From positions 136,433-190,578 of the forward strand of contig JAQUUP010000001.1 in NCBI GenBank assembly GCA_028693815.1: a stretch of DNA of 54,146 bases, written 5' to 3'. The translations under genes and the position numbers were made by a program. Position 1 is the stretch's first letter. Every line of letters begins with the position of its first letter. The notes beneath the pieces are model-generated. The model was not told where the DNA came from, did not search any database, and saw only the letters and a program-made list of their open reading frames with translations. This document shows, piece by piece, positions 978 through 33,600 of this stretch. The stretch is from Candidatus Omnitrophota bacterium (GTDB lineage Bacteria; Omnitrophota; Gorgyraeia; Zapsychrales; Aceulaceae).

Positions 978-1301
978 GTGAAAAGCAAAAAGGCACAGAC
1001 ATTAATCGAGTATGCTATTGTTGCAGGCATTGTTGCCATTGTGCTGGCAACTATGGGAACGCCTTTTAAGAGAACGATTCAAAAAATTATGAAGTCTGTG
1101 GCAGATGCGATTGGTTATCAAAGCAAATCTGAGCAAGCGGCAAATCATGAGGAAGGGTATTTGGATTTTGCAGAAACAAATGCTTGGGTTACGACAAATA
1201 CAGCGATTGATGAAACCCAAGGTATTTATAGTAGCTATGAACAAGAGATGATCACAACAAAAACAAATGCATTAACAAATTTGGGTTTAACGGAAGAATG
1301 A
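978..1301 (+). CDS. Class III prepilin-like protein (pseudopilin 3)
   Basis: A 107-residue protein starting with GTG: MKSKKAQTLIEYAIVAGIVAIVLA. Cleavage is expected at A6|Q7, with glutamate at +5 (E11) and a helix at about residues 10-30. This is the closest of the set to a canonical Flp pilin leader (QTLIEYA), although the mature part is longer than a typical Flp major pilin of about 50-60 residues. A GAAGGG element lies 11 bases upstream of the GTG. No ATG precedes the hydrophobic stretch in this frame, so the GTG start is needed to include the leader. It shares the ATGA overlap with the next gene (1298-1301), so translation is probably coupled. Confidence 0.78.
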   Translation: MKSKKAQTLIEYAIVAGIVAIVLATMGTPFKRTIQKIMKSVADAIGYQSKSEQAANHEEGYLDFAETNAWVTTNTAIDETQGIYSSYEQEMITTKTNALTNLGLTEE

Positions 1302-1630
1302 TGATAAAGAAGAGTTTAAAAACAAAAAAATATAACAAAAAAGGGCAAACACTTTTAGAATTCGTGGTTCTTTTTATTGTTATTATTTCAGCACTTATTG
1401 CTATGCGAACATATATTCAGAGAGGTGTTCAAGGAAAATGGAAAGAAACTATTGACGGCATGGGAAAGCAATATGATCCGTTAGGAGAAGTACATTCAAC
1501 GCAAAATATGGAATCTAATTCTTCGACGTTGATGATAGTTGATGTCGCTGGTGCATCTGGGTACGAAACATCGAGAACGGACGTAACAAATATGGTGGAA
1601 AATAAAGTAGAAACGATTACCATTGAATAA
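1298..1630 (+). CDS. Class III prepilin-like protein (pseudopilin 4)
   Basis: A 110-residue protein with a long lysine-rich leader, cleavage site G16|Q17 (QTLLEF), glutamate at +5 (E21) and a helix to about residue 38. The stretch from SALIAMRTYIQRG through GKWKETIDGMG to QYDP is strongly similar to the gene at 1632, so the pair arose by duplication. The start ATG overlaps the previous stop (ATGA), and a second ATG follows at once (1301); either could be used. Role: a pilus subunit or minor pseudopilin inserted by the Tad machinery, inferred from leader and context. Confidence 0.78.
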   Translation: MMIKKSLKTKKYNKKGQTLLEFVVLFIVIISALIAMRTYIQRGVQGKWKETIDGMGKQYDPLGEVHSTQNMESNSSTLMIVDVAGASGYETSRTDVTNMVENKVETITIE

Positions 1631-1631
1631 A

Positions 1632-2069
1632 ATGAATTTTAAGAAAAACAAAAAAGCTTCGTCTGTTGTTGAGTATTCGGTTTTAATTCTTTTGTTTATT
1701 GGTGCAATGATTGCGATGCGCCATCAGATACATCGATCTTTTTTTGGTCGATGGAAAGAAACAGCTGATCGTTTTGGATATGGCCAACAGTATGATCCGG
1801 CGAAGACTTTGGAATGTCAGCGTTATGCAGCTCATGATTCTAGTTCAGGTGAATGGCCATGGGAAATATGGTATGCTCAGAATTGTTACGCATGCTGCAT
1901 AGATAAAGAGGGTGTTTCAGATTGTACAGAATACGGTTTTAATGGAAGTATTCAGGGTGTTACTGCGGATCAATGTCGGAAAAAACCCGATGAGCCGCAG
2001 ATTCCTTGGGGGCTAAGTCCTCATTGGTGTTGTGCTACGGCTTGCGAAACAGATGAATGCAAAGATTGA
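1632..2069 (+). CDS. Class III prepilin-like protein with Cys-rich C-terminus (pseudopilin 5)
   Basis: A 145-residue protein (MNFKKNKKASSVVEYSVLI...) with predicted cleavage at A9|S10 and glutamate at +5 (E14). The region GAMIAMR through GRWKETADRFG to QQYDP matches gene 4. The C-terminal half is rich in cysteine and tryptophan (CYACC, CCATAC), suggesting disulfides in an extracytoplasmic tip domain. A TTG at 1623 could extend it by three residues and overlap the previous gene; ATG 1632 is chosen because it sits one base after the previous stop and gives a normal leader. No strong ribosome site is visible for either start. Confidence 0.75.
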   Translation: MNFKKNKKASSVVEYSVLILLFIGAMIAMRHQIHRSFFGRWKETADRFGYGQQYDPAKTLECQRYAAHDSSSGEWPWEIWYAQNCYACCIDKEGVSDCTEYGFNGSIQGVTADQCRKKPDEPQIPWGLSPHWCCATACETDECKD

Positions 2070-2112
2070 GAATGATGTGCCGGATAAAGAATAAAAAGAA
2101 AAGATAAGAATA

Positions 2113-3693
2113 ATGATATTAATTTGCCGAAAACTTAAAAACAAAAAAGCACAATCTATTTTAGAGCTTGCGATTTATGGAGGCCTTGTTTTGATGTTTT
2201 TGGGCGTGGTTATTCGCTATGCAATGAGTTTTGCGGATAGTTCAAATGCTCAATTTGGTGCGATGCATAAGGCTTTAGAATTATCAGGGCGAAGCTTGTC
2301 GGAGACAGGCAGCGTAGATGGTTCTGTAAGCAGGTCTCATGCGTCTGTCTTATGGATTAATGACAAGCCAACTTTGGAAGGTGGAGCAAAGTATGGCTCT
2401 TCTTCCAGCACTCCGTCGATGGCATCCGGGGGAGGAACTTTTTCTAACCTTCTTAACTATTCTTTAGAATACGGAGAAAATGAAAACTTGCCTGTTACTG
2501 ATATTTATATCAATGGTCAGCATTTTGTTTTTCGTACGGCTGGATTTCGGACATATGGAAAAGGAGCAAATGGAGTGTCTTATGATAGTTCTCAAACTGT
2601 GAATATGATGGGAGGAGACGGAGTAAGACTTTGGGATCTGTGTCCAGGAGAGAATAATTCAAAAAATTGTTTATCAAAAGTTCCTCATTCAGTTTTAGAC
2701 GAATGGAAGGAGTTTGCTTGGTTTAGTGGTTGGTTGATAAAAGCTCCTCAGCTTGTTTTTTATACAAAGATTGCGAAAACAAATAAGAAATTTTGTTATA
2801 GTCAGTGGGATCCGTGGAAGCCAGATTTCTCAAGACATTGTGGCGATGACCCTAGCAATGAAGAGCTTAAGCATAGGTTTAATTTGAAAATGGAGGATCC
2901 TGCTCCTTCTTTGATGTCTAAGGCAGATCGCTATAACATGGAATGGCAATGGTTTCCAGTGCATGCTTCGTTGTGGGGCATACAGCCTTATAAGGATGGC
3001 GCTCAGACCGTGCTTGATGTTGATTTTGATAAAAAGGAAGAGCAGATTTTAACTTTAATTGCGATAAAAGGTTGCGGTGGGAACATTATGCTAGAAAGTA
3101 CATATAATCTTTTGGAGCCCGGAGAATACGGAGATGCTTTGTGGCCATTTGCTGATGCGGGTATTTGTATGGTGGTTACACAGCTAAAGGTTTTAGATTA
3201 TCAAGCAGGTGATCTTGACATGACGTATGATACTGCAGACAAAGTTGCTGGAAAACCAAGTCCTGGCCTTGTGAGCGACCAGGCAAAGATCACAACGTTT
3301 TCTTCTGGACAATTAATTGTTGATCAAGAAGAGATTGCCTCTGGTTCTATTGAGAAAAAAACGAGACAAACTCAGAATTCTTTAGATATCATTGAGCGTA
3401 AGATTCAGTTAAGCAATAATACAGGATGTTTTTGTCCAAAAAAAGGTTTGATTGGGGCAGGAGGTTGTTATAGCCACGCAAAAGATGACGTGGGTTATGG
3501 TTTCTCGGAAAAACCCGATTATTGCAGCAGCGACAATTTATCTGTTGAGATGGCATGCAACACTTTGGATTGTTGCGACGGAGATGCTTATAACGCGAAA
3601 TATAAAACATGTTTTGATTATGGAACAAATATTCTTTATGTGCGCACTGTTATGGAAGATAGAAAAGGAGTTAAATTTATAACGCAGGATTAA
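2113..3693 (+). CDS. Large TadE-like pseudopilin with Cys-rich C-terminal domain
   Basis: A 526-residue protein. The N-terminus MILICRKLKNKKAQSILELA has a prepilin-type site (A13|Q14) with glutamate at +5 (E18), then one membrane helix to about residue 35. The remaining roughly 490 residues are soluble, aromatic-rich and contain a cluster of about ten cysteines at about residues 437-492 (CFC, CNTLDCC). This is much longer than a typical TadE (about 150-200 residues). The layout fits a minor pseudopilin carrying an adhesive or tip domain, held by disulfides outside the membrane. The upstream gap is 43 bases with a purine-rich but weak ribosome site. The ligand cannot be deduced. Confidence 0.7.
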   Translation: MILICRKLKNKKAQSILELAIYGGLVLMFLGVVIRYAMSFADSSNAQFGAMHKALELSGRSLSETGSVDGSVSRSHASVLWINDKPTLEGGAKYGSSSSTPSMASGGGTFSNLLNYSLEYGENENLPVTDIYINGQHFVFRTAGFRTYGKGANGVSYDSSQTVNMMGGDGVRLWDLCPGENNSKNCLSKVPHSVLDEWKEFAWFSGWLIKAPQLVFYTKIAKTNKKFCYSQWDPWKPDFSRHCGDDPSNEELKHRFNLKMEDPAPSLMSKADRYNMEWQWFPVHASLWGIQPYKDGAQTVLDVDFDKKEEQILTLIAIKGCGGNIMLESTYNLLEPGEYGDALWPFADAGICMVVTQLKVLDYQAGDLDMTYDTADKVAGKPSPGLVSDQAKITTFSSGQLIVDQEEIASGSIEKKTRQTQNSLDIIERKIQLSNNTGCFCPKKGLIGAGGCYSHAKDDVGYGFSEKPDYCSSDNLSVEMACNTLDCCDGDAYNAKYKTCFDYGTNILYVRTVMEDRKGVKFITQD

Positions 3694-3739
3694 TACATTT
3701 TAGTTTGAAGAAAAAGTAAATAAAGCCAAGAGAGAAAAA

Positions 3740-4012
3740 ATGGTAAAAATAAAAATAAACCAAAAAAAAGCGCAAGCAACATTGGAATTTGTCTTTGCAT
3801 TTATTGTGGTGATGCTTATTTTTTACAGCTGCGTTAAAGCTCTTCAATGGGCTGGTATTATTTTTGTTAGACCTATTGTAAGCAATGAAAGTGTTAAGCA
3901 AAATCCTCCTGCGGATAACGCTGAATGGTGGGAGTTTAAAGATCAGATGACAAGGCCATCAGAGGAAATTCCTCAGCTAAATTTAATTTTTCAAGAAAGT
4001 TTAATGCAATAA
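3740..4012 (+). CDS. Small TadE-like pseudopilin (pseudopilin 7)
   Basis: A 90-residue protein, MVKIKINQKKAQATLEFVFAF..., with a predicted prepilin cleavage site A11|Q12, glutamate at +5 (E16) and a hydrophobic helix to about residue 35. A short polar domain with several Trp and Pro residues follows. The start ATG is 5-12 bases after gagagaaaaa. It lies 46 bases after the large pseudopilin and 27 bases before the TadG-like gene, so it is part of the same operon. Probable minor pilin or pilus-initiation subunit, by analogy with TadE/TadF partners. Confidence 0.72.
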   Translation: MVKIKINQKKAQATLEFVFAFIVVMLIFYSCVKALQWAGIIFVRPIVSNESVKQNPPADNAEWWEFKDQMTRPSEEIPQLNLIFQESLMQ

Positions 4013-4039
4013 TATTTTGAGGCATAAGGAGAGTGTTTG

Positions 4040-7000
4040 ATGTTACAGATTTTTAATCAATGGTTACGTTTTAGCTGTCGTCCTCAAAGAAAAAGACTGC
4101 AAGGGCAGATTGCTATTGTGCTTGTTGTTTTTTTAGCTATTTTGCTGGTCTTGACGTCCGTTATTATTAATTTAGGAAAAATTTCTCAAATTAAAACAGC
4201 GTTAACTGTTGTTTCTGATACGACTGCCGCTGTTTTAGCTTCTTCGGTTGCAAGTTATGTTGAAGCTTATTATATGGAAGGGATTAGGGATAATGTTGAT
4301 TGTCCTTCCGTTTTAACTGTAAAAGGGGCAGGATGGGGCAAGCAAATTGTGGGGTTTATTATTGACTTGGTCTGTGCTGTAGGGTTGACCATTGCAAGTC
4401 TTGTTCCTGGTGCTGCTGCAGTTACAGGAAAAGCCGCTGGAAATGCTTGGATCAATGTTGGGGCAGATCTCGTAGAGATGGGAGTTAAGTCTATCGGCCA
4501 AGGTAAGATTATTTCTTCATGGAATAAATCATTTAGTGATCTTGAGATTAATCAGCAGATTCGTGATCAAGGTCTCATGACTGCCCTTCAGTCTTTAGTT
4601 ACTGATTCATTTCAGCTTCCAGAGATTGGTGATGATGATATGGATGGCTATTATTATGGTGATGGTACCCCGGAAGGGACTAATGAGAAAATTAGTCGTT
4701 TTAATTTTCTATTTGGTAAAAGAGTTCATGCTTTGGCAGAGAAATCTTACGACAGAACTAACCTTGTAAAGTTGTTTCAAAGGGCTTTAGGAGAGTTTGT
4801 TACAAAAGGGGGAGGATCCTTGCCCTTTGATTCAGAGCCGTTAGATGATGATGGTTGGGGTCTTTGGGATTCTGGTTGGCACGAAGATATCCCTGATGTA
4901 GGAACATATCATCATAATGAATATGATGATAGATGTGATGCTTCAGCAAGCCCACTTGATCCAGCCTGTCCTGACAATGGCACTCCTTGGCGATATATTT
5001 ATGATCCATATTATGAACGATTTTCTAATGTTAGCTTTGAATCTTTTCGTGAGTTTATAGGAAGAGATGATGAAAACCAATTGATTACATTTGCCGTTAA
5101 CGGCAATGCTATTTTTTTGAATTCTGGAGAGGAGCAGTGGCTTGAGCAAGATACAAGAGGACAGCTATATCCATTCTTGTGGAAGCTCGATAAGCTAGCG
5201 ATGTGGTATGAAGTGCGTCCTCCATATCAGACTGATGAAGAAAATTGTTATTGGAGTGGCTTTGGTTTTGATGGGATGGGAAATAAGCGTTCAGGATTTT
5301 GTGAAGATTATCCGGATAGTTTAAATTTAGCATTAACATATGGATCGATGTGCCTCGAATATCCTGATTACGACAAAGAAAGGTGCTGGCATGCTGTCGA
5401 AAAACTAGATACTGTGAATGTCGCGTCTCTTAATAATAACGAATGCTATGATTCTGTAGGAGGTTTAATTTGGAAAAAAGGCGCTAATCAATATTGTTCT
5501 GAAAGTCTTCCTTATAGCAGGTGTCCTGGAAAGAACTGTGATCCGAGTTGCAGCTCTTGTTGCACAAATCCTTTATCATGTCCTCTTTCTTGCATTGCCT
5601 TGTGGACTTGTGGTAAAAATATGCTTGGCAATTCTGTTAATAATCAAGACGAATGGCGAAATGATGCGATTGATCTTTTTAGGTACGATAAAGCAAATGG
5701 ATTAGACGGGCTAATTTCGAAATATTTAGAAATTGATTCCGAGAGTCCTAAATATTTAGCAGCAACATTTGATGATTGGTATCCGGGCGTGGAACCTTGG
5801 ATTCGTGTAGGCGATGTGGATAATCCTGGAAAATTAGAAAAGTGGGTTTCGACTATCGAAGAAATACAAAATCATATTACATCTTTTCAGAATGCTAATT
5901 ACACTCTTCCTTATTTTCCCGGTATTTGCTCTGGGTCATTAGGCGACATTAAGGATTGTTATGACGATGCTCTTCAAAATATTAATACTTGTTTTACTGA
6001 GTGCCCCGAGAACATATCAATATGCCAAAATTTAGCGGATCAATTTGGCTTAGATTTTAGCGAGCCTCCTGAAGGCGATCAAGCTACAGGATGTCATTCT
6101 GATATTCCGTCGGGCCCGAACGTATATTATCATTTTATCTGGGAAATAAAGAATATTGCGGATAAAATTTTGCAACGCAAAGAATTTTTATTTGGACCTG
6201 ATGGGGAGGGAGGATTATACAAAGAATCTCAAGATATTTTTAATAAACTCCAAGAAGCTAAAGATAAAATTAATGGATTTTTAAATGATCCTCGAGTAAA
6301 AGCATTACGTGATTATATGAATTCGGCTTCTCAGCATACGCCTTTTTCTATGGGAAACAATTCTAGCGCTGTTTATGCTTGGCGCGATGATCCAAAAGAG
6401 GGTCAAGAATTTGGTCCTTGGCATATTGTTTTTGTTGAAGCAAAAATTCCAAGTTTATGCAATGGAAACTGCAGAAGAACGACATGTATAAGCGATGGAG
6501 GGAATATTAATCCATCTACCAATGGCGATGATTGTCCTGTGGAGCCAAAATTTCCAGAATTTTATAGCTACGGCAACAATGGGGCAAATTTTAGTATTAT
6601 GGATTATCGAGGTAAAGGTAGGTGTATAGTTGCCAGTGACTATGGCAACACAAACAAGTGTTTTAAAGGGGGGATGACGAAGGTGAGGGTTATCCGTTAT
6701 GACGAACCTTCTGGAGTCCTTAATTGGGCTACAGGCACGAATTTTTGGAGAAATATTTTTAAGCATCCAGACGCTGAATCAGTGTCGTCTCCAGATTTAA
6801 TCGCTCAACAAGGTTATTGTGGGGATATTATGGCTTTTGATTCGGTTCCTGGGGCTTTTGGTACGCCAGGAGCTTTTCTTTTGGCTGAGATAACTGATGA
6901 AAATTTAGATTGTTGGAGTTTAATGAGCGATCTTTTAAAAGAAGGGGTTGAGAGTCGATCTTGCACTGAATATTTCTTAGGTGATCTTCCTTGCGGACAC

Positions 7001-7057
7001 CCTAGTGCTTTTGCTATAAAATTTGTGGATTGTAAGGATGCTCCAGATCCTTGGTAA
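4040..7057 (+). CDS. Large TadG-like pilus-associated protein
   Basis: A 1005-residue protein. Residues 1-21 are basic, followed by GQIAIVLVVFLAILLVLTSV and NLGKISQIKTALTVVSDTTAAVLAS. This resembles the TadE/G-like N-terminus (GQ, hydrophobic helix, then an alanine-rich segment with an aspartate). Glutamate at +5 is absent (V27), so it may be anchored rather than processed. A second hydrophobic stretch lies near residues 100-140. The rest is a large polar domain with many Cys (CPGKNCDPSCSSCC) and acidic DDD/GDG clusters, typical of disulfide-rich extracellular or calcium-binding surfaces. ATG 4040 is preferred over TTG 4037 because AAGGAGAG ends about 6 bases upstream. TadG proteins are usually about 400-600 residues, so this one carries an extra ectodomain. 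Confidence 0.65.
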   Translation: MLQIFNQWLRFSCRPQRKRLQGQIAIVLVVFLAILLVLTSVIINLGKISQIKTALTVVSDTTAAVLASSVASYVEAYYMEGIRDNVDCPSVLTVKGAGWGKQIVGFIIDLVCAVGLTIASLVPGAAAVTGKAAGNAWINVGADLVEMGVKSIGQGKIISSWNKSFSDLEINQQIRDQGLMTALQSLVTDSFQLPEIGDDDMDGYYYGDGTPEGTNEKISRFNFLFGKRVHALAEKSYDRTNLVKLFQRALGEFVTKGGGSLPFDSEPLDDDGWGLWDSGWHEDIPDVGTYHHNEYDDRCDASASPLDPACPDNGTPWRYIYDPYYERFSNVSFESFREFIGRDDENQLITFAVNGNAIFLNSGEEQWLEQDTRGQLYPFLWKLDKLAMWYEVRPPYQTDEENCYWSGFGFDGMGNKRSGFCEDYPDSLNLALTYGSMCLEYPDYDKERCWHAVEKLDTVNVASLNNNECYDSVGGLIWKKGANQYCSESLPYSRCPGKNCDPSCSSCCTNPLSCPLSCIALWTCGKNMLGNSVNNQDEWRNDAIDLFRYDKANGLDGLISKYLEIDSESPKYLAATFDDWYPGVEPWIRVGDVDNPGKLEKWVSTIEEIQNHITSFQNANYTLPYFPGICSGSLGDIKDCYDDALQNINTCFTECPENISICQNLADQFGLDFSEPPEGDQATGCHSDIPSGPNVYYHFIWEIKNIADKILQRKEFLFGPDGEGGLYKESQDIFNKLQEAKDKINGFLNDPRVKALRDYMNSASQHTPFSMGNNSSAVYAWRDDPKEGQEFGPWHIVFVEAKIPSLCNGNCRRTTCISDGGNINPSTNGDDCPVEPKFPEFYSYGNNGANFSIMDYRGKGRCIVASDYGNTNKCFKGGMTKVRVIRYDEPSGVLNWATGTNFWRNIFKHPDAESVSSPDLIAQQGYCGDIMAFDSVPGAFGTPGAFLLAEITDENLDCWSLMSDLLKEGVESRSCTEYFLGDLPCGHPSAFAIKFVDCKDAPDPW

Positions 7058-7165
7058 GCCTTGTTAGAGATTTATTTCTTTAACAGTATTTGTGATTTTG
7101 TCAGAAATTTTATTTTAATGAGTTTAAAATTAACATTTTTCTTTAGTTGGTAAAAATTAAAAAAT
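7058..7165 (+). other. Intergenic gap before tadB, no clear signals
   Basis: A 108-base AT-rich spacer. No hairpin followed by a T-run and no clear -35/-10 pair were seen. TadB and TadC may be transcribed with the upstream pilins. Confidence 0.4.
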
Positions 7166-8023
7166 ATGAAAATATTGTCTTTTGTGCTTTTATTTTTTTC
7201 GGTAAGTAGTCTTTTTTTTATTTTTTTACCGAAGCTCCTCGATCTTATTCGCGATTTTAATAAGCGCCGAGCAGAGAAAATGGCTACAAGAATGGACGAG
7301 ATGTTTGTTCAAGCTAAAGAAAAGAAGATGGTTTTTCTTTATATTTTGGCTCCTTTCTTGTTGGCGGTGATTGCTTTTTTAGCGGCACCTGAAGACTATC
7401 GTCTTTTGGCCTCAATTGTCGGAGGCGTGATTGGTTTTGTTTTTCCTAGTTTTTATATTAAGTTTTTAGCCGGCAAAAGAAAAAGGATGTTTTATAGTCA
7501 GCTTGTTGATGCTTTGATGATGCTTAATAGTGCGCTCAAAGGGGGTTTAAGTCTTTTGCAGGCAATGGAAGTTGTGGCCGATGAGATGCCTGACCCGATT
7601 AGTCAGGAATTTGCGATTTTGATTGGAGAAAACAAAATGGGCGTTTCTCTTGAGGCGTCTTTTGATAGGCTTTATGCTCGCATGGGAACGCCTGCTCTGC
7701 AGCAGTTTATTTCGGCTGTTCTTTTAGCTCGAGAAACAGGCGGAAATCTTCCGGTTATTTTTAATCGCATTATTGCCACGATTCGCGAAAATCGTAAAAT
7801 TCAACAAAATATTGAAACTTTAACATTACAAGGGAAAATACAAGGATTTGTTATGTCTTTGCTCCCAATTGCGTTCGGTGTTTTTGTTTATAGTTCAAAT
7901 CCTCAATATTTTGATATTATGTTGGCGTCGCAACAGGGAAAAAATCTTTTAATATTGGCAGCTTTTTTGCAGGTTGTTGGAACATTTTTTGTTATTAAAT
8001 TTAGTAAAATAGGGGATTTTTAG
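7166..8023 (+). CDS. tadB: TadB-like Flp pilus assembly platform protein (GspF/T2SSF domain)
   Basis: A 285-residue inner-membrane protein. An N-terminal helix (about 3-25), a basic cytoplasmic stretch and two closely spaced helices (about 57-100) lead into a T2SSF/GspF-type helical domain: FYSQLVDALMMLNSALKGGLSLLQAMEVVADEM, then GVSLEASFDRLYARM and ARETGGNLPVIFNRI. Two C-terminal helices end the protein. Length and helix order match TadB, which with TadC forms the inner-membrane platform that couples the TadA ATPase to pilin extrusion. It is followed after 5 bases by tadC. No Shine-Dalgarno sequence is evident in the AT-rich upstream sequence, so the start is chosen as the first ATG before the N-terminal helix. 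Confidence 0.88.
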   Translation: MKILSFVLLFFSVSSLFFIFLPKLLDLIRDFNKRRAEKMATRMDEMFVQAKEKKMVFLYILAPFLLAVIAFLAAPEDYRLLASIVGGVIGFVFPSFYIKFLAGKRKRMFYSQLVDALMMLNSALKGGLSLLQAMEVVADEMPDPISQEFAILIGENKMGVSLEASFDRLYARMGTPALQQFISAVLLARETGGNLPVIFNRIIATIRENRKIQQNIETLTLQGKIQGFVMSLLPIAFGVFVYSSNPQYFDIMLASQQGKNLLILAAFLQVVGTFFVIKFSKIGDF

Positions 8024-8028
8024 AAAAT

Positions 8029-8901
8029 ATGCTAATTTTTATTTTTCTATTGGAATTTTTTGCGGTCTTTACACTTGTTCTAGCCATTCATGATACTTTA
8101 AGGCCAGAGCCCAGACCAACTTTAAAAGGGCTTGTAGACATGCCGAAGGAAGAAAAGAAAAAGTATTCTTTCTTTCGGCACCTTGTTTTTTTTAACAAGC
8201 CTTTATGCGCAGGACCTTTAGGTGAAAGGCTAGGAAGAGAGCTTGTCTTAGCGCGCATAAATATTTCTCCAGAAGAATTTTTATTTCTCAAAGAGCTTCT
8301 CATAGGGCTTCTTCTCTTTTTCACATATCCTATGTCGGAGCCGCAGTCGCGCATGATTTGGCTTATTACAATTTTGGCTGCAGGATTTTATGTTCCAGAT
8401 TTCTTAGTTAAAATAAAAATAAAAAAGGTGAAGAATTTAATTATCAAGGAGCTTCCAGACACGATTGATCTTTTAAGTTTGTGTGTTAATGCCGGGCTTG
8501 ATTTTCTTCTTGCGCTAAAATGGGTTATTGAGAAGTCGGCCCCTTCAATATTGATTCAAGAGCTTAAGCATGTTTTGCAGGAAGTCCATGTTGGAAAGCC
8601 GAGAAGAGACGCATTGACAGATTTTGCCAACAAATACCAAATACCAGATCTATCGACATTCACTAGAGCTCTTGTTCAGGCAGACCGCATGGGAACATCG
8701 GTTGCGGATGCCCTTAATATTATTTCGGAAGACATGCGAATTTCGAGATTTAGGCGTGGTGAACAAATTGCTTTAAAAGCGCCTTTAAAAATGCTCATGC
8801 CTTTACTGTTCTGCATTTTTCCTGTTGTCGCCATTCTTGTTGCTGGCCCCGTTTTTCTGCAGTTTTTTCAAGGGAACCTTATAAAAGGTATCAGCGGATA
8901 A
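8029..8901 (+). CDS. tadC: TadC-like Flp pilus assembly platform protein (GspF/T2SSF domain)
   Basis: A 290-residue inner-membrane protein: N-terminal helix (1-20), basic Lys/Glu stretch, two helices (about 86-126), then the T2SSF domain with KELPDTIDLLSLCVNAGLDF, a hallmark TadC segment (LPD.ld.l...v.AG), and RALVQADRMGTSVADALNI. A final helix pair lies at about residues 250-280. It pairs with TadB as the inner-membrane platform of the Tad pilus. It begins 5 bases after tadB ends. It is the last gene of the cluster: after it comes a 700-base non-coding gap and the giant gene. Confidence 0.88.
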   Translation: MLIFIFLLEFFAVFTLVLAIHDTLRPEPRPTLKGLVDMPKEEKKKYSFFRHLVFFNKPLCAGPLGERLGRELVLARINISPEEFLFLKELLIGLLLFFTYPMSEPQSRMIWLITILAAGFYVPDFLVKIKIKKVKNLIIKELPDTIDLLSLCVNAGLDFLLALKWVIEKSAPSILIQELKHVLQEVHVGKPRRDALTDFANKYQIPDLSTFTRALVQADRMGTSVADALNIISEDMRISRFRRGEQIALKAPLKMLMPLLFCIFPVVAILVAGPVFLQFFQGNLIKGISG

Positions 8902-9420
8902 ATCCTTCATTTCCTAGATTGGACGTTCAGTCTTTAGAATTATCAATTGTTTAAATTCCCGCATTAATACAAAAAATCCATAGATATAAGCAAAATTTAA
9001 ACTTCTCTTTGTTTTTTGTTTGTTTCTTTGTCCATTCTGAAATGTCCACTCAGAATATAATAAATTTATTATTTCTTTAAAAAATATCATAAAAATTTCA
9101 AAAATCCAACACAATAACGTCACATTTATCATCTAATATAAACATGTTGTTAAAATTAATACAGGACGTTAACAACTTGAAATACAATGATTTTCGTCTT
9201 AATTTAAAATTAATTCACAGCTATTTCTTTTGTTTGTCGTCGAGTAAAAAGTAAATGAGATGGGCAAGAAAGATTTTGGTGGTTATAAAAAGTTGAATAA
9301 TAAAAAAATAAAATTGGAAGAAAATTCTAAAAGCAAACGCTTGCTTTTAGAGTGGTTTCCAAGAAAAAATAAAAAAATATAAAAGATTTATAAGTTATTG
9401 CAGTAGTTGACTTTACAGAA
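8902..9420 (+). other. AT-rich non-coding region with several short inverted repeats
   Basis: No convincing gene was found. Visible structure: attctga/tcagaat with a 9-base spacer (9034-9056); a 16-bp perfect AT palindrome (9057-9072); gttgttaa/ttaacaac with a 15-base spacer (9146-9176); and a strong hairpin with 10-bp perfect arms ctaaaagcaa/ttgcttttag and a 4-base loop (9327-9350). The word tgtcca recurs at 9030, 9043 and 9421, and its inverted core ttggac at 9469, which could mark repressor half-sites upstream of the giant gene. None of the hairpins has a following T-run good enough to be called a terminator for tadC. Confidence 0.5.
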
Positions 9421-9430
9421 TGTCCAATTC

Positions 9431-9458
9431 TTGACAGACGCGATTCTTGTGTTATATT
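9431..9458 (+). promoter_or_regulatory. Sigma70-type promoter for the giant gene
   Basis: A perfect TTGACA (-35, 9431-9436), a 16-base spacer and TATATT (-10, 9453-9458), the only such pair seen upstream of the giant gene. Transcription should begin near 9465, giving a leader of about 135 bases. Inverted gtccaa (9422-9427) and ttggac (9469-9474) flank the promoter symmetrically and could be operator half-sites. Confidence 0.65.
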
Positions 9459-9517
9459 TAATTCGTAGTTGGACCACCTTTAGATTAGATTGAATTGATT
9501 GATTTAGATTTTACAAA

Positions 9518-9569
9518 AGCCACGGAAAGAGTACCCTGAAATTATTAATATTAACCAAGGGCTGTGGCT
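9518..9569 (+). promoter_or_regulatory. Candidate antiterminator/sensor stem in the giant-gene leader
   Basis: agccac (9518-9523) can pair with gtggct (9564-9569), and inside it ccct (9534-9537) with aggg (9558-9561). These right-hand strands are the left arm of the terminator at 9559-9583, so the two folds exclude each other, which is the layout of an attenuator or riboswitch expression platform. No known riboswitch consensus was recognised. Confidence 0.45.
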
Positions 9570-9592
9570 GGAAGTCACAGCCCATTTTTTTT
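9559..9592 (+). terminator. Intrinsic terminator directly upstream of the giant gene start
   Basis: gggctgtggct (9559-9569) pairs with agtcacagccc (9573-9583), giving 11 bp (one G-U) and a 3-base loop, followed by A and eight T's (9585-9592). It lies within the leader of the promoter at 9431 and ends 9 bases before the ATG at 9602, so it can only act to abort transcription of the giant gene (attenuation). Confidence 0.8.
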
Positions 9593-9601
9593 GAAAGAGC
9601 C

Positions 9602-30600: not shown

Positions 30601-33600
30601 GGCATCGAAAGTACCTGATTTTAAGGAAGCAACGATTTCTGTTTTGGAAGCAAAAGCTGCGCATTTACGCAAGCAAGCTTCTTTAAAGAAAGTGCCTAAG
30701 GATGCTGATCTGGGCTATTGGAAGAATGCCGCAGAGGTTGACCTAGAAGTAAGCAAGCTCAAAGGTCAAGAATATAATCCTGTGCAATCTGCTCTTAGTG
30801 ATTATTCTACTGACTTAGCATTAGCCAAAGAAACGAAAGATTATCCTAGAGCTTATGATGCAGTAAAAGTGCTAAGTGTTTTGGACAGCAAGAATTATAA
30901 CCAGAAGATTTTGACTAACGAGATTCTTTTTGAAGAATATTCACAGCGTGTAGAAGTTCTTGTGAAAGAAGGAAAAACTGATGGTCGGAAATATAAAGAA
31001 GCTGCTCAAGCTCGTCAAGAAGCGTACAAATTAGCAGGATTTGATAGATCTATTAGCAAAAATGTGGAAAAGATTTGGAGTGAGGCTATTGTGGCAGCAA
31101 GCAATAATGATATTAAAGCTGCTAATCAAGGTTTGGCTCAAGTAAAACATATTTTCCTTGCTTCACGAACAAAACAAGAACGCAAGCAGATTCAAGAAGC
31201 CGGAAAGAAAACAGCTGGGGCTATGAATTTGAAGAATCCAGAAATAGAAAAGAAGATTCAAGAAATAGCTAAAAGAAATGATGGAAGTGTTGAGGCAGTA
31301 AAATTTGGAGATGTTGTTAAAAAGGATGGACAAATATATAATGCGAATATGTCCCGTCCTTATGCTTTTGGAAAACGAACAAAACAACAAGAAGAGATAT
31401 ACCAAGTCATTCTCCAAGCAGAAAAGTCGCCTATTGATTCTGCTAACGAGAGGATGAGCAAAGGTGAGTCTGTCACCTATGGAGACTTGGCTCGGGCATC
31501 AAATAAGATTATTCAAGAAAAAGGTTATGGAAAAGATGCTTATTGGAATTTTGGTGCTCTTTTGGGGTATGGAACAGGACTTCAGGATTATGAAGAAAAC
31601 TTGATTGTTAGCGAGCAAAACAACATAGTTATTCAAGAAGGTGATGTTTTTGTTATGGAGCCAAGTATTTACTTGCCTGGAGTCTTTAAAGGCGGAGCTG
31701 GGAACACTTATATGGCTGTTAAGGGCAAGAAAGAACAGTTGCAGCTTGTTTCTGTAACAGGCGAGGCTCCTAAAGAATTACCGGTGATTGAGATACAGTC
31801 TGCTTCTTCTGTTATGAATATTGATAGCGACCGCGTTAAAACTTCTGAGACAAAGTCAGGAGGATTCAATACTTCGTCTGTGCTTCCTGCTATTGGCGCA
31901 GCAATGCTTCCTATTGTTTTGACTTTCTTGCCTATGCTTTCTAGCGCACAGAGCGTTGTTCAACAAGGACTTGATTTTGTTAATTCAGCACACGGGGATT
32001 ATTCTGTGGCATCTTTATCGTTCTTAGCTATCGGCGCAGTTACCGCATTTTTGACAAAGCAATTTCTTGATACAAAGAGATCTGTTGGCGATCAAAAGAT
32101 GGCGAATTCTGCGACGGTTGTTACTCCGTCAAAGCTTGCTACTGCTCGTGCATTACCTCAAAGCATTAATCCAGGCAGCTCAGTTGCGACTAGCGCAACA
32201 CCGATTACTGATTTGAAGAATGAAATTATTGCGCCATTGCTAGAATACGGAGAAACAGTTCATATTTATGTTGGCGGGGATTTTTATCGAATTAATAAAG
32301 GTTTTGTTGCTGAGAAAGAAGGCTTGGGCGATGTTGTAGAAGGATATGTTTTTGCAGCTAAAGAATCTGACAATCCATTAAACGAGGAAGATGAGGTTCC
32401 TTTCTTACCTGAATATGAAGAGTCAGTGCTCTTAGCTCTTGTTTTAGATACAGTGCTTGTAGCCACAAAAAATATTGTAAAATCTAAGACAGCAGTTGTG
32501 CCGACTACAACAAAGGCTCCAGAAATGGTTCTCGCAAGTTCAAATGTTGGAAGCTCGACTCTGCTTTCTAGCAGACCTCTTGGCAATATTGAGCTCCTTA
32601 ATACATATAATCAAGGTAATAGTGGGCTTACAGTTAGAGACATGGCTCTTGTTAGTGGATCTTCGGTGATTTATGTCTCCGCTGCTGAAAGAAAAGAAAC
32701 GATAGCTACTCTTAAAGATGGTCATATGGCAGTTTACGAGTATCCGGTCGATATTTCAGATATTAATACTGACAACAGTTGGGTTATTACTGTTTCAGAT
32801 GAATATAAAGATAGCTTTGTGCCAAGCAACGAGGAAGCTCGTTATATAGTCGGAAATGTAGAGTTTTCAGATGCACCATCTTTTTGGTCTGCACCTGATA
32901 TCTCGGTTATTGAAATTCCACAATTCGAAGAAATGGATGCAACGATTGATGGGGTTGAAGGCGTAACTGCGCCAACAATAGAGCAACCAGGTGTTCCTCT
33001 TACGCCAGTTGTACCAATGATTCCTTGGATGACAATTTCTAAGGCAAATGTTGAAGGAAGATCGCTAGCAGTTAAAAAGCCAGCGCCTTCCTCTATATAT
33101 AGGGCAAATGCACCAAATGGTGAAAAAGCAGCTGCTTCGAATATTCTTCTTTATGCAAGAAATATATTGAAAGCATTAGGTTTTGAAGCAATCTTTTTTG
33201 CGATTGATCTAGCCACATCTATTTCAATGCCGATTACAGCATTTATTTCAATTCTAAGCCTGGCATTGACCATGAGACCTATATTTGTTGGACAACGAAC
33301 AAGTCAAGCCCCAGAAACGCTTTCTACGGTCCAAACGCCAAATGAAAATAGAGAATTTAAGCAAGTTCCTCTGCCAAATCTAGGAAATCAACAAACAAGC
33401 AGTCCTTTTAGCGATATTCCTGTAGGGCAGCAGAAGGATCCTATGGCTCCTGCTCCGATTATGCCAGTTACTCCGATAAATATGCCTTTATTATTAGGTT
33501 CAGCGAATGATGGCAATGGGCGAAGTAGCTCAATGATAGCGTATGCGAGGTCTATTCATAACGATAAAGATGCGATTCAGAAATCCGCCGCACCAGTAAC

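Follow-up and report, generated by a model that had tools for sequence, protein, structure and literature searches.

A candidate transcription attenuator and a recurrent GCCACGG box in the leader of an Omnitrophota giant gene

Giant genes of the phylum Omnitrophota, which is without an isolate to date, are thought to serve predation or adhesion (PMC10066038), and a literature search returned no paper on their regulation. The question of when such proteins are made is raised by a giant gene in a 1.9-Mb genome assembled in 52 contigs, for which an earlier note, made from the sequence alone, had proposed a leader with two competing folds. The window analysed here is a stretch of 54,146 nt that contains this leader and at least part of the gene. 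A leader switch tying the giant gene to c-di-GMP-linked and two-component genes would open a direct way to study the timing of their production, and it hints at a new regulator in the phylum.

Promoter, leader and competing folds

The giant gene runs off the contig end and its length is therefore a minimum (Table 1). The N-terminal region of its product is present in 33 of 54 genomes searched, the source genome counted, and many of these ORFs are also giant. A peptidase M24-like domain, encoded at about 31340-31690 of the window, was observed within the protein, which is otherwise mostly without annotation. Directly upstream of the gene lies a Tad-like pilus cluster with pilin-like genes carrying a class-III signal and two T2SSF genes (window 1298-8901; G000:C1 134661-138200), and one of these pilin-like genes has a GCCACGG leader of its own.

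The promoter (9431-9458) matches the consensus at 11 of 12 positions, has a 16-nt spacer and a TG before the -10 box, and is the only one of such quality found in 5 kb by a consensus scan. Transcription is predicted to start near 9465, giving a leader of 137 nt before the ATG of the giant gene. Further upstream, a palindrome (TCTAAAAGCAAACGCTTGCTTTTAGA) was noticed at 9326-9351; similar palindromes (GAAAACGTTTTC/AAAGCGCTTTC) are located upstream of many giant-gene promoters in relatives and resemble a LacI-family operator. Repeats of the types AATGTCCA / TTTGGACA and ATTTCCATTCTGAA (here at 9046-9052 and 9420-9426) recur often before giant genes of different families, with AATGTCC in 12 of 39 leaders (0.85 expected), and are perhaps an operator or the ends of mobile elements.

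Table 1. Features of the promoter, leader and giant gene in window coordinates
Feature	Position	Strand	Remarks
GAATGTCCAATTCTTGACA, conserved block ending in the -35 box (TTGACA, 9431-9436)	9418-9436	+	18 of 19 bases identical in four family genomes
-10 box, TATATT	9453-9458	+	Consensus scan; conserved in three relatives
Antiterminator 5' strand, AGCCACGG	9518-9525	+	Fold; contains the GCCACGG box (9519-9525); invariant in four family genomes
Inner antiterminator strand, CCCT	9534-9537	+	Fold; partner AGGG at 9558-9561
Terminator hairpin, GGGCTGTGGCT-GGA-AGTCACAGCCC	9559-9583	+	11 bp, 7 GC, loop GGA; -18.7 kcal/mol
Antiterminator 3' strand, CTGTGGCT	9562-9569	+	Fold; overlaps the left arm of the terminator; complementarity p = 0.010
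Terminator T-run, T8	9585-9592	+	Also in G002 (T7) and G003 (T5); none in G001
Giant ORF	9602-54146	+	At least 14,848 aa; C39-peptidase-like domain near residues 175-296

A predicted intrinsic terminator is located between this promoter and the start codon, and promoter, hairpin, T-run and ATG all lie where the earlier note had placed them. The hairpin with its T-run is by far the best terminator-like site between 7000 and 12000, a region with nine such sites versus 4.7 ± 2.3 in shuffles. The distance of nine bases to the start codon given in the note fits the gap after the T-run, whereas the stem itself ends 18 nt before the ATG. Similarly, the competing segment (AGCCAC, 9518-9523) had been located correctly, but the antiterminator helix is longer than described, with 8 bp including one GU pair between its outer strands and an additional CCCT/AGGG pairing.

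When each is enforced on the RNA that begins at the predicted start and includes the whole T-run, antiterminator and terminator are of comparable stability (-25.4 versus -25.6 kcal/mol). Folding of successive prefixes, which like all folding here describes equilibrium and not kinetics, placed the antiterminator first and the terminator last: the probability of the antiterminator is about 1.0 before the right arm of the terminator emerges, 0.56 with this arm finished and 0.12 after the last T of the run. The competing pairing exceeds chance expectation: shuffling of the upstream leader with the hairpin held fixed reproduced the real early pairing of the left arm before hairpin closure in 1 of 300 shuffles, and the final terminator was weakened as much as by the real leader in 5 of 300. 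No Rfam family was found in the window, a lax threshold giving chance-level matches alone, which agrees with the note's failure to recognise a known riboswitch class, and no c-di-GMP-I aptamer was matched in the leader at the Rfam gathering score. A look by eye for a short ORF overlapping the antiterminator, as expected of a leader-peptide attenuator, revealed no ATG with a ribosome-binding site between 9465 and 9558.

Conservation among relatives

The genomes compared are metagenome-derived, close relatives are few, and the family comparison comprises four genomes (the source genome, G001, G002 and G003). The -35 region, the -10 box, GCCACGG and a GGGCT(G/A)TGGCT arm are conserved in all of them, and the remainder of the leader drifts. 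Covariation in the two stems had been named in the earlier note as a check on its reading. The terminator stem, 93% paired across the family, shows one compensatory pair, a GC-to-AU double change in G003, but the antiterminator, 97% paired and invariant except for one mismatch, shows none. As its strands, and the upstream strand in particular, do not vary, they yield no covariation, and this was counted against the attenuator reading. The G003 antiterminator has additional pairs on its other side (TGCAG-AAAGCCA with TGGCTTT-CTGCA), and there, too, it is in balance with the terminator (-21.1 versus -20.6).

Further observations were counted against this reading. In G001 and G002, where the box is doubled, the terminator is clearly stabler than the antiterminator. 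The stem is followed by T7 and T5 in G002 and G003, respectively, but G001 retains the hairpin without a T-run, so that it cannot be a terminator there. Finally, giant leaders of family f7 and most of those of family f5 are without the box. In family f3, the partner of GCCACGG is shifted to the loop or the right arm of the terminator (p = 0.002 for L013 and p = 0.11 for L016). Complementarity to the box in six giant leaders, which are not fully independent of each other, exceeds that of shuffled sequence when combined (Fisher p = 2.6e-5). Overall, energy balance, folding order and conservation in relatives back the note's proposal of an attenuator with mutually exclusive folds.

The GCCACGG box in other leaders

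The upstream strand carries a sequence whose recurrence the earlier note had missed. Among the 7-mers of 39 giant-gene leaders, which were selected solely through homology of the proteins, GCCACGG ranks second in enrichment behind TATACTT of the promoter; 9 leaders contain it versus 0.14 expected by base composition. In the source genome, TATAYT followed by GCCACGGR at 12-73 nt gave 14 matches (12 distinct sites) versus one for the reversed pattern, and nearly all matches are located in 5' leaders in sense orientation. A census based on homemade ORF calls placed 12 of the 61 copies of GCCACGG in 1.26 Mb of the source genome in intergenic regions: ten in leaders, one in a 16S gene and one on the opposite strand of a hairpin.

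The genes behind the box code for PilZ, receiver-HisKA-HATPase and PAS-GGDEF proteins, Flp/class-III pilins, a large secreted family without Pfam match, and a 104-aa protein before a YggS-like gene. GCCACG(G/A) was found upstream of 4 of 10 PilZ-like genes versus 15 of 1107 genes (p = 4e-6); for the large secreted family, the association in this sample is less strong (2 of 12, p = 0.01). Because small PilZ genes carry the element too, the rationale of the earlier note, a checkpoint for a protein that is costly to make, fits poorly. The leader of the 104-aa and YggS-like genes also contains, in four genomes (L043, L133, L135, L138), a strongly conserved GTCCCCACCAG(C/T)CATGGAGGAC besides the box.

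The output structures that use the box vary. In one arrangement it forms the 5' arm of a terminator: the pattern GCCACGG-N8..38-CGTGGC-N-TTTT had ten matches in 54 genomes versus none for the reversed control, and nine of the ten precede genes resembling PilZ, receiver-kinase or secreted-protein genes (Pfam checked on representatives). Across 384 genomes of the phylum, 40 matches versus 3 were obtained; among those inspected, many precede PilZ or secreted-protein genes, and some (L277, L278, L295, L298) resemble ordinary terminators. As the reversed pattern lacks a terminator's asymmetry, gene context carries more weight here than the control count, and since both arms are fixed in the pattern it is uninformative on covariation. 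In a second arrangement, a hairpin lies over the ribosome-binding site (GCCAC ... CCTTAA..TTAAGGAG..GTGGC-ATG), as at a PilZ gene of the source genome. In a third, the box lies 15-30 nt upstream of the start codon and no clear hairpin is seen, and the giant-gene leader, in which the box opposes a separate terminator, represents a fourth. At PilZ-like genes near position 1500 of L291, L292 and L294, a GCCACGG hairpin seems to enclose both the ribosome-binding site and a GTG start; the sole in-frame start found by eye in L291 and L294 is the GTG inside CGTGGC.

Several potential readers of the box were considered and rejected. CsrA was above the family cut-off in none of 54 genomes, with the controls detected. 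Processive antitermination of the RfaH/LoaP type would involve a NusG paralogue, and the source genome (96.5% complete) gave a single NusG match. Pairing with 16S rRNA was discarded as the complement CCGTGGC is absent from eight 16S genes, and GCCACGG itself is present in the 16S gene of the source genome. For a small RNA with perfect CCGTGGC, no free intergenic copy exists in 1.26 Mb of this genome save a palindrome on contig C3; wobble pairing would still be possible. With CsrA absent, NusG without paralogue and 16S rRNA without complement, we infer that the reader is a small RNA or a protein. Literature searches found no relevant paper on GCCACGG with leader RNA and none on Omnitrophica with riboswitch.

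Interpretation and comparison with known attenuators

The reading that we moderately favour is that of a transcription attenuator whose choice of fold is set by a putative trans-acting factor reading GCCACGG. The folding computations show that the antiterminator, formed by the box and the left arm of the terminator, can be complete in the nascent RNA before the right arm is made, and that the terminator can form with a final stability nearly equal to that of its competitor. The candidate factor, a small RNA or an RNA-binding protein, would decide between them in trans. A factor of this kind is suggested by the recurrence of the 7-mer, with different output structures, in leaders of many c-di-GMP-linked, two-component, pilin and large secreted-protein genes. 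The earlier note had considered a new signal; as GCCACGG is common to many leaders of the genome and class, a shared trans-acting factor is favoured over a private ligand sensor. In the giant-gene leader, occupation of the box would release the left arm and promote termination (gene off). The PilZ and receiver-kinase leaders use the box as the 5' arm of the terminator, and its occupation there would block termination (gene on). Which way the regulation runs is the part of the proposal held with least certainty.

It is unlikely, yet deserves weight, that the hairpin is no attenuator but shields the mRNA at its 5' end or prepares it for translation, with the T-run as a by-product of an AT-rich genome and the box acting on translation. 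In favour of this explanation, 18-25 nt separate the end of the hairpin from the ATG in each of the four family genomes, including G001 without T-run, and elsewhere the box adjoins or closes over ribosome-binding sites. However, the stem is followed by T-runs in the other three genomes, the terminators of f3 are located 150-194 nt from the ATG, and the hairpin of the source genome leaves the 18 nt before its ATG free. Quite unlikely is an unswitched leader, in which the hairpin terminates constitutively or marks the end of a small RNA transcribed from the giant-gene promoter and the gene is reached by leaky read-through. A short RNA ending at 9592 would be expected from this promoter, and partial read-through requires no factor; the balanced alternative fold, its rarity in shuffles and its retention in relatives would then be coincidences.

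A new riboswitch with a ligand pocket formed by the leader itself appears very improbable, even though c-di-GMP-I riboswitches are abundant in the order (in 50 of 54 related genomes) and a giant-gene homologue is under the control of one. In L188, a c-di-GMP-I-GGC riboswitch (69.3 bits, 2782-2866), matched at the Rfam gathering score, is followed by a terminator-like hairpin directly before the start, near 2929, of a distant homologue with 29% identity. Consequently, another lineage very probably attenuates this gene family through a known riboswitch, which was also counted in favour of the attenuator reading; in the source genome, a different leader occupies its place. Apart from the absence of Rfam matches, conservation of the leader beyond GCCACGG and the hairpin arm is poor even among family members, and because only the 7-mer is common across genes, too little is offered for a usual aptamer. 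The box was also rejected as a truncated c-di-GMP-I aptamer, since the aptamer 5' half is missing in all GCCACGG leaders inspected. At two loci (L047:1178-1329 and L140:741-891), a c-di-GMP-I riboswitch was observed with a promoter and GCCACGG leader about 200-300 nt further on.

Beyond the single leader, the tag also precedes many signalling and surface-protein genes of the class, and GCCACGG therefore looks like an undescribed shared control switch. We tentatively propose, as a possibility that may well hold, that it marks a class-wide post-transcriptional regulon. One putative trans factor would read the tag in nascent leaders and, acting through interchangeable terminator or ribosome-binding-site hairpins, would bring PilZ and GGDEF proteins, receiver-kinases, pilins and large secreted proteins under common control, together with giant surface genes, for which the wiring would be inverted.

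Among known systems, c-di-GMP-I riboswitches (RF01051, RF03167) share the terminator platform before c-di-GMP-linked genes, but the giant-gene leader is without an aptamer. CsrA/RsmA sites are likewise short, GGA-containing elements of 5' leaders that lie close to ribosome-binding sites and precede c-di-GMP, pilus and surface genes; in contrast, the conserved core here is GCCACGG, with GCCACGA variants that are without GGA, in genomes without CsrA. In attenuators of the Bacillus subtilis trp/TRAP type, the choice between terminator and antiterminator is set by a trans factor (PMC3913778, PMC4027176). The leader resembles these in its two exclusive folds, in a terminator near the coding region and in a short recognition sequence that is repeated (the doubled box of G001 and G002). 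It differs in that the recognition sequence is GCCACGG with a reader that is only putative, in that the box itself serves as the antiterminator strand, and in the giant surface, PilZ and kinase genes that it precedes.
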